Shown: positions 8,920 to 56,525 of the stretch, piece after piece | Layout: every line of letters begins with the position of its first letter | How positions within the stretch are numbered: the stretch's first letter is position 1 | Source of the DNA: an uncultured Ruminococcus sp. | GTDB taxonomy: Bacteria; Bacillota; Clostridia; Oscillospirales; Acutalibacteraceae | Length of the DNA stretch: 64,000 bases | Reading direction: 5' to 3' | NCBI GenBank assembly: GCA_905233755.1 | Contig: CAJODM010000011.1 | Span: forward strand, 1 to 64,000 | Notes under the pieces: generated by a model | Databases searched by the model: none | What the model was told of the DNA's origin: nothing | What the model saw: only the letters and a program-made list of their open reading frames with translations | Program-made: the position numbers and the translations under genes

Positions 8920-10002
8920 TTACCACACATGGAACACCGCGGCGGCGATGACCGCGATCAGGATGACCGCACCGTCGACGATGGCACATGTCCTGTCGCG
9001 CATGCGACAGATGAGGGCGTACAGCTTTCTTAGCGGCCACGAGAAGCACGGGATCGCCAGCACCAGCGCACACACCACCGACAGAGTCAGCACCGTCAGC
9101 TTCCACAGCGGATCGCCCAGCCCGTCGATCATCCCGAACACCCCCGCCGCCGTCAGCGCCAGCAGCAGCGGCGTATGCCAGAAGTACACCCCGATGGCGT
9201 TCTGACCCGCCTTTGTCCACAGCGGCAGCCGCCGGTTGGGAAAGAGCGCCACCGCCGCTATCACCATCACGCTCGAGATACCGTAGCACAGCAGCCGGTG
9301 ATAGACGGTGCACCCCTCGATCGGCACCGCCGCATAGGGGTTGCGGCCGGTGAACAGCATCCGCATCGGGTACAGCAGCTCGCGCAGCCGAAAGCACATC
9401 ACAAAGTAGATGACCGTGAACACAAGTCCGGCGATCTTCACATGGTTCTTGTGAGAGAACCGGCGCACCTCCATCGGCGTAAGGTAGTACCCCGCAAAGT
9501 AGAACGGCATGAACACGAAGTACCGCGACAGGTACAGCTCGTCGCGCAGCGGCGTCAGCCCCACGAGCAGCCCCAGCGTCAGCGCCGCTGTGATGACCGC
9601 ATAGCGGTTGAACCGTCCGACGGCGAGCGCGGTGAGCATATACATCGCCAGCACGAACAGGTACCATTCGATGGTCGCGCCGCCGAACAGCGTCAGCCCC
9701 ACCTGTTCGCCGGATGCGCGGCGCATCCCGAACACCAGCAGCTTGAGGGCGAACCCCGCGATCAGGTAGAACGAGAACCGGTGAAGGTCAAACCGATCGC
9801 CCGCCTTATACTGCTTTTGCAGCAGCCCCGAGAGGAAGATGAGCAGCGGTGCGACGAACGAGGACGCAAAGAGGAACCAGCTTCGAAACATATCGGAGCT
9901 GTCGGTATATCCGTCCGCAAAGCTGCTGATGACGACCAGCAGGATCGCGAACATCCGCACGTTATCGAATTTGTAGATACGCGGTTTCTGTATGCTGCCC
10001 AT
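8920..10002 (-). CDS. acyltransferase 3 family membrane protein
   Basis: Multi-TM; RIYKFDNVRMFAILLVV N-terminus and AIGVYFWHTPLLL. Confidence 0.75.
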   Translation of the reverse strand: MGSIQKPRIYKFDNVRMFAILLVVISSFADGYTDSSDMFRSWFLFASSFVAPLLIFLSGLLQKQYKAGDRFDLHRFSFYLIAGFALKLLVFGMRRASGEQVGLTLFGGATIEWYLFVLAMYMLTALAVGRFNRYAVITAALTLGLLVGLTPLRDELYLSRYFVFMPFYFAGYYLTPMEVRRFSHKNHVKIAGLVFTVIYFVMCFRLRELLYPMRMLFTGRNPYAAVPIEGCTVYHRLLCYGISSVMVIAAVALFPNRRLPLWTKAGQNAIGVYFWHTPLLLALTAAGVFGMIDGLGDPLWKLTVLTLSVVCALVLAIPCFSWPLRKLYALICRMRDRTCAIVDGAVILIAVIAAAVFHVW

Positions 10003-10070
10003 AGCGACCTCTTGTACCGTAATATGCCGATATTATACTACTTTCGACAAAAAAAGTCAATTTTTCGCCG

Positions 10071-10099
10071 TTGACACCGCGGCACCGGTATGCTACAAT
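10071..10099 (+). promoter_or_regulatory. sigma-A promoter of hydrogenase-maturation block
   Basis: TTGACA-17 bp-TACAAT. Confidence 0.8.
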
Positions 10100-10103
10100 A
10101 TAT

Positions 10104-10219
10104 GTGACCCTGACCGAAAGGATGACGCACCCGTCACCCTGACTGAAAGGCGATGCCATACGTGCTCGGACAGCGCTGTGCTGTCATGTGACGCCGCACC
10201 GTCGGGGTGCGGTTTTTTT
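10104..10219 (+). promoter_or_regulatory. structured 5' leader with direct repeat and intrinsic terminator (candidate attenuator)
   Basis: ACCCTGACCGAAAGG (10107) and ACCCTGACTGAAAGG (10136) flank hairpin TGACG-CACC-CGTCA; then GACAGC/GCTGTC hairpin and CCGCACC/GGTGCGG+T7 terminator just before the SD. Confidence 0.55.
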
Positions 10220-10239
10220 ACTTTTTTAGGAGGGAAGAG

Positions 10240-10488
10240 ATGGAGAACACCCGTGTCGCGGTGCTGTCTGTGATCGTCGAGGACGACAACGCCACCGCCG
10301 AGCTGAACACCCTGCTGTCCGACTTCTCGCGCTATGTGATCGGTCGCATGGGTGTGCCCTATCGCGAGCGCGGCGTGCGCATCATCAGCGTCGCCGTCGA
10401 TGCGCCCCAGGATCGGATCGCCGCTCTGTCCGGCAGGATCGGCTCGCTGTCGGGCGTCAGCGTCAAGACCGCCTATGCGAATGTTTAG
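10240..10488 (+). CDS. TM1266-like iron-only hydrogenase system putative regulator (ACT-like fold)
   Basis: 83 aa, RVAVLSVIVED...YVIGRMGVPYRERGVRIISVAVDAP; AGGAGG SD; precedes hydG. Confidence 0.8.
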   Translation: MENTRVAVLSVIVEDDNATAELNTLLSDFSRYVIGRMGVPYRERGVRIISVAVDAPQDRIAALSGRIGSLSGVSVKTAYANV

Positions 10489-10585: not shown

Positions 10586-12034
10586 ATGCCTGTCTATAAC
10601 CCGTCATCCCTGATCGCGGACGAATTTATCAACGACGCCGAGATCCGCGAGACGCTCGAGTACGCCGAGCGCAACAAGAACAACCTCTCCCTGATCAACG
10701 AGATCCTCGAGAAGGCGCGGCCCATCCCCACCGCCACCGGCTGCCGGTGTCAGGGGCTGACCCACCGCGAGGCGTCGGTGCTGCTCGCGTGTGACGACCC
10801 GGCGGTCGAGCAGCGGATATACGAGATCGCCGAGGAGATCAAGCTTGCGTTCTACGGCAACCGCATCGTGATCTTCGCCCCGCTGTACCTGTCGAACTAC
10901 TGCGTCAACGGGTGCGTCTACTGCCCCTATCATCTCAAGAACAAGACCATCCCGCGCAAGAAGCTGACTCAGGACGAGGTGCGCGCCGAGGTTATCGCCC
11001 TGCAGGACATGGGTCACAAGCGCCTCGCCATCGAGGCCGGCGAGCACCCGCAGATGAACCCCATCGAGTATATCCTCGAGTGCATCGACACCATCTACTC
11101 GATCAAGCACAAGAACGGCGCGATCCGCCGCGTCAACGTCAACATCGCCGCCACCACGGTCGAGGAGTATCGGATGCTGCGCGACGCGGGCATCGGCACC
11201 TACATCCTCTTCCAGGAGACCTACCATAAGGACAGCTACCTGCAGCTGCATCCCACCGGGCCCAAGCACGACTACAACTATCATACCGAGGCGATGGACC
11301 GCGCGATGCAGGGCGGGATCGACGACGTCGGGCTGGGGGTGCTGTTCGGGCTCGAGATGTACAAGTACGAGTTCGCGGGGCTCATCATGCACGCTGAGCA
11401 CCTCGAGGCGGTACACGGCGTCGGGCCTCATACCATCTCGGTCCCGCGCGTCAAGCGCGCCGACGATATCGACCCCGATGAGTTCGACGGCGGCATCTCG
11501 GACGAGACGTTTGAGAAGATCACCGCCTGTATCCGGCTGGCGGTGCCCTATACCGGCATCATTATCTCTACCCGCGAGTCCGAGGCGGTCCGCAGCAAGC
11601 TGCTGCGGCTGGGCGTGTCCCAGGTCTCGGGCGGCTCGCGCACCTCGGTCGGCGGCTATGCCGAGGAGGATCGCCCCCACGATACCGAGCAGTTCGACGT
11701 ATCCGACCAGCGCACCCTGGACGAGGTGGTGGCGTGGCTGATGGAGAACGGCCATATCCCGTCGTTCTGTACTGCCTGCTACCGCGAGGGACGCACCGGC
11801 GACCGGTTCATGTCGCTGTGCAAGAGCGGCCAGATCCTGAACTGCTGTCATCCCAACGCGCTGATGACCCTGACCGAGTACCTCGTCGATTATGCCAGCC
11901 CCCGCACCAAGGAGATCGGCTATCGCATGATCGAGGAGGAGCTGCAGCGCATCCCCAAGGACAAGGTGCGCGCGATCGCGGCACAGAACATCGAGGATAT
12001 CAAGCACTCGAACCGCCGCGACTTCAGGTTCTAG
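10586..12034 (+). CDS. hydG: [FeFe]-hydrogenase maturase, radical SAM tyrosine lyase
   Basis: APLYLSNYCVNGCVYCPYHLKNK; CRCQGLTHREASVLL; C-terminal FCTACYREGRTGDRFM. Confidence 0.95.
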   Translation: MPVYNPSSLIADEFINDAEIRETLEYAERNKNNLSLINEILEKARPIPTATGCRCQGLTHREASVLLACDDPAVEQRIYEIAEEIKLAFYGNRIVIFAPLYLSNYCVNGCVYCPYHLKNKTIPRKKLTQDEVRAEVIALQDMGHKRLAIEAGEHPQMNPIEYILECIDTIYSIKHKNGAIRRVNVNIAATTVEEYRMLRDAGIGTYILFQETYHKDSYLQLHPTGPKHDYNYHTEAMDRAMQGGIDDVGLGVLFGLEMYKYEFAGLIMHAEHLEAVHGVGPHTISVPRVKRADDIDPDEFDGGISDETFEKITACIRLAVPYTGIIISTRESEAVRSKLLRLGVSQVSGGSRTSVGGYAEEDRPHDTEQFDVSDQRTLDEVVAWLMENGHIPSFCTACYREGRTGDRFMSLCKSGQILNCCHPNALMTLTEYLVDYASPRTKEIGYRMIEEELQRIPKDKVRAIAAQNIEDIKHSNRRDFRF

Positions 12035-12049: not shown

Positions 12050-13234
12050 ATGTCACTACACGCTGCCGTATCCGCCGAACGGCCGCATATCGCGTTCTTC
12101 GGACGGCGTAACGCCGGCAAGTCCAGCGTCGTGAACGCCGTCACCAACCAGCAGATGTCGCTCGTGTCCGACACGCTGGGCACCACCACCGATCCGGTGC
12201 GAAAGGCGATGGAGCTGCTGCCGCTGGGCCCTGTGATGATCATTGATACCCCCGGGTTCGACGACGAGGGCGCGCTCGGCGCGCTGCGCGTGGAGCGCAC
12301 CCGCGAGATCCTGCGCCGCACCGATATCGCGGTGCTGGTGGTCGACGCGACGCGGGGGATAGGCGAGACCGAGCGCGAGCTGATCGACGAGTTCCGCTCC
12401 CGCGGGCTGCGCTATGTTCTCGCGTTCAACAAGAGCGATCTGCTGTCGACTGTCCCTGTGACGGGCGACAACGAGGTCTATGTCAGCGCGCTGACCGGCG
12501 ACGGGATCGACGTGCTCAAATCGCGGATCGCGTCGTTCGTGGACACGCGATCTGATCGGCGCATCCTCGAGGGGCTCGTGAGTGCGGGCGATACCGTGGT
12601 GCTGGTGATCCCCATCGACGCCGCTGCGCCGAAGGGTCGGCTGATCCTGCCGCAGCAGATGACGCTGCGCGAGCTGCTCGATACCCGCTGTACGGCGGTA
12701 TGCTGTCAGCCCGGGGAGCTGCGCGATACGCTGCAGAACCTGCATCAGCCACCGGCACTGGTCGTCACCGACTCTCAGGCGTTCGCGTCGGTGTCCGCCG
12801 GTACCCCCGATGAGCTCCCGCTGACCTCGTTCTCGATCCTATTCGCCCGCTACAAGGGCGAGCTGCCCGCGCTGATGATGGGCGTCGACGCGCTACGCGC
12901 GCTCAGCGATGGCGATCGGGTGCTGATAGCCGAGGGCTGTACCCACCATCGCCAGTGCGGCGACATCGGCACCGAGAAGCTCCCGCGATGGATTCGCGAT
13001 TATACCGGCGTAAAGCCGGATTTCAGCTTCTCTTCCGGCAACAGCTTTCCCTCAGACCTTGGCGGCTATCGCATGGTGGTACACTGCGGCGGCTGTATGC
13101 TCAACGAGCGCGAGATGCAGTCCCGCGCTGCGATGTGTGCGGCGGCAGGGGTGCCGATGCTCAACTACGGCGTCGCTATCGCCGAGATGCACGGCGTGCT
13201 CGACCGCGCGCTGCGCGGTGTGCGCGTGCGATGA
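12050..13234 (+). CDS. hydF: [FeFe]-hydrogenase maturation GTPase
   Basis: GRRNAGKSSVVNAVTNQ G1 motif; C-terminal CTHHRQCGDIG and HCGGCMLN cluster ligands. Confidence 0.95.
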   Translation: MSLHAAVSAERPHIAFFGRRNAGKSSVVNAVTNQQMSLVSDTLGTTTDPVRKAMELLPLGPVMIIDTPGFDDEGALGALRVERTREILRRTDIAVLVVDATRGIGETERELIDEFRSRGLRYVLAFNKSDLLSTVPVTGDNEVYVSALTGDGIDVLKSRIASFVDTRSDRRILEGLVSAGDTVVLVIPIDAAAPKGRLILPQQMTLRELLDTRCTAVCCQPGELRDTLQNLHQPPALVVTDSQAFASVSAGTPDELPLTSFSILFARYKGELPALMMGVDALRALSDGDRVLIAEGCTHHRQCGDIGTEKLPRWIRDYTGVKPDFSFSSGNSFPSDLGGYRMVVHCGGCMLNEREMQSRAAMCAAAGVPMLNYGVAIAEMHGVLDRALRGVRVR

Positions 13235-56195: not shown

Positions 56196-56287
56196 TTCCT
56201 TTATACGGTACTATAACATATTTCAATCCCTTTTTCAATAAAAAAGCTTGCAAAACCCGCTCCTTGGTGCTAAAATATACCCGATAA

Positions 56288-56525
56288 CGTGATGACGGAG
56301 AGAGTAGTCCCCGATCCGTTCGCCAAGAGAGCGCGTGCCATGGGCTGAGAGCGCGCGCCGAACGCCGAGGATGAAGTTCACTCCCGAGCGGCCCGACTGA
56401 ACCCTTAGCAGTAGGTCGGGACGACTGACCTGCGTTATAGGGTCGATGAGCGCCCGCCGTCACGGCGGGAATATGGGTGGTACCGCGGATCCTCCGTCCC
56501 TGTCGGGATGGGGGACTATTTTTTT
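56288..56525 (+). ncRNA. T-box leader, Phe specifier (TTC at 56377-56379)
   Basis: GATGAAGTTCACTCC specifier loop, TGGTACCGCG T-box at 56478, terminator with T-run, upstream of pheS. Confidence 0.93.

Follow-up and report, generated by a model that had tools for sequence, protein, structure and literature searches.

The leader of a TM1266-hydG-hydF operon carries a member of a class-wide cis-regulatory RNA for [FeFe]-hydrogenase maturation. As judged by comparing leaders across Clostridia, the RNA is real and new, and its predicted role as an attenuator is well supported. The conserved part is a hairpin of ~32-45 nt with which the transcript begins. The leader is very probably an attenuator RNA, of a class that is undescribed. 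We propose that it acts in cis, and probably as an OFF-type feedback on TM1266-hydG-hydF.

To our knowledge, little has been established about how cells adjust H-cluster maturation to demand, and we know of no target for TM1266, which is so far a putative regulator. The control of H-cluster maturation can be approached through a compact RNA that hydE, hydF, hydG, aspA-hydF, and a nitrogenase-like operon have in common. Such an RNA would define a new class of orphan riboswitch or of protein-dependent attenuator, it would assign TM1266 a role or exclude one, and it would tie aspA and the nitrogenase-like cluster to the same signal. In the engineering of hydrogen production, it might also serve as an anaerobic sensor of metallocofactors.

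The leader upstream of TM1266

All positions refer to the window, which is the whole 64,000-nt stretch of DNA that was analysed. The leader (10100-10239, about 135 nt) lies between a promoter and the ATG of the TM1266 gene. The features of the leader and the operon are:

10071-10099, + strand: sigma-70-type promoter TTGACA-17-TACAAT, with 11 of 12 matches to the consensus and a TG ahead of the -10 box
10107-10121, + strand: first repeat, ACCCTGACCGAAAGG, the 5' strand of the hairpin
10123-10136, + strand: apical hairpin UGACG-CACC-CGUCA, the tip of the longer repeat hairpin (from the sequence and the MFE fold)
10136-10150, + strand: second repeat, ACCCTGACTGAAAGG, the 3' strand of the hairpin
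10169-10185, + strand: linker hairpin GACAGC-GCUGU-GCUGUC
10193-10213, with a T tract to 10219, + strand: intrinsic terminator GCCGCACC-GTCGG-GGTGCGGT
10228-10234, + strand: Shine-Dalgarno sequence AGGAGGG
10240-10488, + strand: TM1266-family gene (TIGR03959), 82 aa, ATG at 10240, first in the operon
10586-12034, + strand: hydG (TIGR03955, 904 bits)
12050-13234, + strand: hydF (TIGR03918, 532 bits)

The first-pass annotation of this DNA had described a promoter before the leader, a 15-nt direct repeat, a GACAGC/GCTGTC hairpin, and an intrinsic terminator before the Shine-Dalgarno sequence of the TM1266-like gene. All four are present, though the GACAGC/GCTGTC hairpin is not conserved among the closest relatives. 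The two repeats, the first of which starts 8 bp past the -10 box, are the only sites in the window at up to 2 mismatches (0.16 expected; none of 100 shuffles reached 2). The annotation had also placed the repeats on either side of the TGACG-CACC-CGTCA hairpin. That hairpin is there, but the repeats also pair with each other, so that it becomes the tip of one longer hairpin. The folding energy of the whole leader corresponds to ordinary stability (z = -1.3), so the significance of the leader rests on its conservation and not on its folding energy.

Some other elements are nearby or look similar. A divergent promoter (TTGACT-17-TATAAT, 10032-10060, minus strand), 10 bp from the leader promoter, serves an acyltransferase gene (8920-10002). 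The window also contains a T-box leader at 56283-56504 (RF00230, 119 bits). Several copies of the repeat core ATCTGACCGAAAGG are found elsewhere in the genome, but these are part of an unrelated interspersed element that begins with TGTCATCCTGAGC, and we rejected them. The genome has a MITE-looking interspersed element of ~150 bp (TGTCATCCTGAGCATTAGCGAAG...GAATGACA) with inverted ends and ~11 copies; loci with this element are L034, L036-L040, L044, L047, L048, L053, L054, and L056.

A nearly symmetric hairpin with two internal loops

In relatives, the leaders of TM1266 share a motif directly after the promoter, CCUGA-CAC-AAAGA..UCUGA-GUG-AAAGG, or a variant with a 4-bp centre, CUGA-CACC-GAAAU..AUUGA-GGUG-AAAGG. 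Because the motif is shared in this form, we interpret the direct repeats as the 5' and 3' strands of one pseudo-symmetric hairpin (10109-10150 in the window). The strands are CCUGA-stem-AAAGG / CCUGA-stem-AAAGG, with two GA/AA internal loops. Since each strand carries the same consensus (CCUGA-N3-AAAGG), a half turn maps the hairpin nearly onto itself.

Across the aligned copies, the consensus of the motif is CYUGA-N3/4-RAAR..YUGA-N3/4-AAAGG. The elements are, in order, P1 (CCU/AGG), a GA/AA loop, P2 (3-4 bp), an AA(GA)/GA loop, and P3. The unpaired GA/AA of the loops are among the most conserved nucleotides of the motif. In the window, these elements are:

10109-10111 with 10148-10150, + strand: P1
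10112-10113 (GA) and 10117-10118 (AA), + strand: loops of the 5' strand
10114-10116 with 10143-10145, + strand: P2, with a C.U mismatch
10119-10121 with 10138-10140, + strand: P3, capped by UGACG-CACC-CGUCA
10141-10142 (GA) and 10146-10147 (AA), + strand: loops of the 3' strand

From 24 leaders, we built R1, a covariance model of 35 nt with 9 pairs. Covariation in these leaders was 0.464, as compared to 0.207 (sd 0.026) after shuffling, and it was 0.533 among 105 copies of the motif, as compared to 0.217 (sd 0.012), although the value for the 105 copies is inflated somewhat, as their alignment (A4) was fitted to the model and leans to the structure. The safer evidence is from the class-wide matches (see below) and from slid structures, which reached at most 0.157 for the 24 leaders and 0.152 for the 105 copies. 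Many of the 105 copies were absent from the training set of R1. Among them, there are compensatory changes at 8 of the 9 pairs, and both sides have changed in 208 cells, versus 75 expected. For example, the stems include CACC/GGUG, CGUC/GACG, CUUC/GAAG, and CAG/CUG. This comparison shows that the predicted hairpin, with its two GA/AA internal loops, is maintained by compensatory changes.

Distribution across Clostridia

We used R1 for unanchored genome-wide searches of 197 genomes from the order and 393 genomes from the class. In the order, 35 of the 39 matches with at least 25 bits are a short distance upstream of TM1266, hydG, or a GNAT-hydG pair. Of the others, three are cut by contig ends and one (in G126) is elsewhere. 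In the rest of the class, where the matches fall on sequences that were outside the building of the model, 24-25 of the 27 matches with at least 25 bits are at TM1266-hydE/G/F, hydG, hydE, hydF, or aspA-hydF. The matches in G348 and G596 fall within coding sequence, and the match in G407, where TM1266 is on the opposite strand, is uncertain. Matches away from hyd genes with less than ~24 bits are mostly in coding sequence, and we disregarded them as noise. We did the same for the matches in G126, G348, and G596, even though these exceed ~24 bits.

The window has this match:

10108-10152, + strand: the motif, an aptamer-like hairpin (R1, 24.3 bits, E = 0.003)

This is the sole match to R1 in its own genome up to E = 2. 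With 24.3 bits and a C.U mismatch in P2, it is a divergent member of the family.

The commonest place for the motif is in front of TM1266. At 80 named TM1266 loci, 47 of the 48 motif matches are on the same strand as TM1266, and nearly all are upstream of the gene. Six TM1266 loci that we initially counted as lacking the motif have it as well. A promoter is found ahead of 81 of the 105 copies (24.6 expected from shuffles), and the motif mostly starts 5-16 nt past the -10 box. Some loci have a second copy before hydG (L015, L087, L226, L268, L284, and L308), and some have tandem hairpins (L008, L015, L157, and L182). In two of the tandem loci (L157 and L182), a GNAT acetyltransferase gene lies between the motif copies and hydG.

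In L217, L218, and L219, the motif precedes aspA (aspartase), with hydF directly after it, which links aspA to H-cluster maturation. In L216, the motif and TM1266 are followed by a small membrane protein that resembles the S component of an ECF transporter, and not by hyd genes.

The motif is also found in genomes that lack a true match to HydG. In G052, G071, G065, G124, and G169, the matches to the HydG model are weak and below the cutoff, and are consistent with other radical-SAM proteins. The motif still lies ahead of TM1266 and a FecCD permease. Downstream, G052, G065, and G124 encode an ABC ATPase with a C-terminal TM1266 domain, a NifH/CfbC-like protein, and proteins similar to nitrogenase component 1 (Oxidored_nitro); the operon of G052 additionally encodes HydE and a periplasmic binding protein. 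These operons (L318, 690-8525, in G052; also L317 and L320) encode a nitrogenase-like system under the same RNA.

Predicted switching between terminator and antiterminator

A terminator-like hairpin follows 91 of the 105 copies of the motif, with a median spacing of 35 nt. The 3' strand of the motif pairs with its own terminator at a mean of -17.6, as compared to -14.5 (sd 0.32) if terminators are permuted (z = -9.7). Often, GAAAGGC in the motif pairs with GCCUUUC in the terminator arm. The proposal in the first-pass annotation that the leader is an attenuator gains its support from this complementarity. For the window, the pairing with its own terminator is -23.1, which is in the top 7%, and the antiterminator is:

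10135-10143, + strand: 5' strand of the antiterminator, CACCCUGAC, with 9 contiguous pairs to GUCGGGGUG at 10201-10209

This antiterminator uses another arm than most relatives do, and it is predicted to exclude the terminator as well as the aptamer fold. In nearest-neighbour energies, which take no account of the extra stability of G.A pairs and under which the full aptamer pairing, if forced, costs energy, the minimum for a transcript that ends with the U tract is the terminator state, in which P1 and P3 are present (-40.9 kcal/mol, versus -39.7 kcal/mol for the antiterminator, or a gap of 1.2). If the fold is extended to the start codon, then the antiterminator becomes the minimum (-46.7 kcal/mol). 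So, a terminator and an antiterminator that are mutually exclusive are predicted within a 5' leader, as in transcription attenuators. Also, as in riboswitches, a conserved and covarying aptamer domain is joined to an expression platform.

Other copies would act at the Shine-Dalgarno sequence. About ten copies that precede hydG or hydE, either intercistronic or close to the start, have the 3' strand of the motif in or beside this sequence (L199, with UUUGAAAGGUGGACUAAAAAUG, and L202, L204, L205, L268, L284, L308, L015, L087, and L207). Because the layout with the terminator and the layout with the Shine-Dalgarno sequence both imply the same polarity, we infer that the closed hairpin is likely to be the OFF state.

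In the proposed mechanism, a closed and bound hairpin would block the antiterminator (10135-10143 with 10201-10209). The terminator (10193-10219) would then form, and transcription would stop before TM1266-hydG-hydF. With nothing holding the hairpin, the antiterminator would form and the operon would be read. This would be OFF-type negative feedback.

What might hold the hairpin closed

The likeliest trigger would be an oligomer of TM1266 that responds to a metal or cofactor signal and binds the symmetric hairpin, much as PyrR does at the repeated attenuators of the pyr operon. We tentatively favour TM1266, acting in the manner of PyrR, as the putative binder over a small-molecule riboswitch. 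TM1266 is predicted with high confidence to fold into a beta-alpha-beta-beta-alpha-beta domain, and its best matches among solved structures are TM1266 from T. maritima (2nzc), the nickel-binding regulatory domain of NikR, and then ACT domains. The predicted structure of this 82-aa protein has no DNA-binding part.

Where the motif is away from TM1266 (at hydG, hydE, or aspA), TM1266 is still present in the genome for 35 of the 41 genomes tested. Of the six genomes without it, five have matches in coding or unrelated sequence or were not followed. The sixth is G293, which has the motif and no match to TM1266, and whose contig ends beside the operon. However, ~95% of the order's genomes with HydG have TM1266, so the co-occurrence of the motif and TM1266 is weak evidence; with TM1266 near-universal in these genomes, we rejected co-occurrence as proof of a trans factor. 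TM1266 is also present in 64 of the 80 HydG-positive genomes that have no match to the motif, and after correction, no residue of TM1266 separates loci with the motif from loci without it. Given how common TM1266 is without the motif, and with no such signature, there is no direct tie of TM1266 to the RNA. On the other hand, the motif precedes the operon with TM1266 and the nitrogenase-like genes where a genome lacks a true HydG match, which makes a ligand that only HydG makes unlikely. These operons argue that the common element is TM1266, or a signal that both systems share.

Could the conserved element be DNA instead? Direct repeats near promoters are typical operators, and here the first repeat lies close to the -10 box. 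A dimeric repressor might bind direct repeats spaced 29 bp apart past the -10, with the RNA structure being incidental. But what is preserved between the two copies is complementarity and not identity (as in the stem pairs listed above), their spacing changes with the length of the hairpin loop, and copies of the motif are found inside operons, directly before hydG at the Shine-Dalgarno sequence. Complementarity to the motif's own terminator is also a property of the transcript. We consider an operator to be very improbable. We give equally little weight to a constitutive leader (plain read-through or protection of the mRNA) or a chance similarity, with no regulated switch: the ordinary folding energy of the whole leader would fit, but the covariation, the gene specificity, and the complementarity to the terminator are far beyond the controls.

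A true riboswitch, in which two symmetric pockets of the hairpin would themselves bind an ion or small molecule and shut the operon with no need for a protein, is a serious competitor to TM1266, if a somewhat less probable one. Candidates for the ligand would include iron, precursors of the Fe-S or Fe-CO/CN kind, and a radical-SAM product that is common to both regulons. The strong conservation of the unpaired GA/AA, the terminator and Shine-Dalgarno layouts (which are typical of riboswitches), the tandem aptamers, and the presence of TM1266 beyond the motif-bearing genomes are all consistent with this. But a plain hairpin without a junction or pseudoknot is small for an aptamer, the genomes with a clear motif have TM1266 too, and control of TM1266 and the nitrogenase-like operon where a true HydG match is lacking disfavours a HydG-only ligand. 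A narrower form of this idea seems rather a long shot: that the two twofold-symmetric pockets directly sense a metallocluster precursor (iron, Fe-S, or organometallic) that is common to H-cluster assembly and the nitrogenase-like system. Finally, a general factor or an RNA-binding protein other than TM1266 might be what binds the attenuator. The RAT/CAT system shows that a protein dimer can read a hairpin with two internal loops (PMC3369936), and TM1266 lacks a residue signature for the motif. But no other gene is common to all of the motif's loci, and we saw no gene for a known RNA-binding regulator beside the motif, so another protein is unlikely. TM1266 thus remains our preferred, if tentative, candidate.

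Comparison with known systems

The first-pass annotation did not recognise the leader as a standard riboswitch class, and this holds: at the gathering threshold, Rfam 15 has no family in the leader or in the leaders of 16 related loci. At relaxed E-values, there was one irrelevant viral match or nothing, and the T-box covariance model did not match the leader. The annotation had also suggested aligning the leaders of related operons. When we did so, the leader proved to be conserved, with covariation, upstream of orthologous operons. Both checks leave its claim standing. We did not find any report of such an RNA in the literature that was searched. Surveys of orphan riboswitch candidates (PMC6429828, PMC8632094, PMC11109978, PMC2864571) do not mention hydrogenase. 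Their candidates are similar to our motif in that they are conserved, covarying RNAs upstream of the genes of one pathway, with control by a terminator or at the Shine-Dalgarno sequence.

The closest analogs are two protein-dependent systems, the PyrR attenuators for the proposed mechanism and the RAT hairpins for the architecture, but the motif belongs to neither family, as both the sequences and the proteins differ. In the Bacillus pyr operon, whose attenuators are controlled by PyrR, the anti-antiterminator is a 5' hairpin, and its closure terminates transcription (PMC7430163). There, the gene for the regulator is first, and extra attenuation sites lie between later genes. Similarly, TM1266 (whose role as a regulator is assumed) is first in most of our loci, and there are sites between genes. 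However, the RNA differs in sequence and structure: by inspection, the consensus of the PyrR binding loop, ARUCCAGAGAGGYU (PMC7430163), is absent from the leader. The proteins differ as well, as PyrR is a uracil phosphoribosyltransferase while TM1266, the putative binder, is ACT/NikR-C-like. And unlike the PyrR sites, some copies of our motif are predicted to act at the Shine-Dalgarno sequence.

The RAT elements of LicT/SacY/BglG are also stems with two internal loops that are mutually exclusive with a terminator, and a protein homodimer reads the two loops alike (PMC3369936). Our motif differs in that its loops are GA/AA and nearly symmetric, and no CAT/PRD protein was seen at its loci. The polarity also appears to be opposite: a RAT hairpin prevents termination, while the closed hairpin that we describe would favour it.
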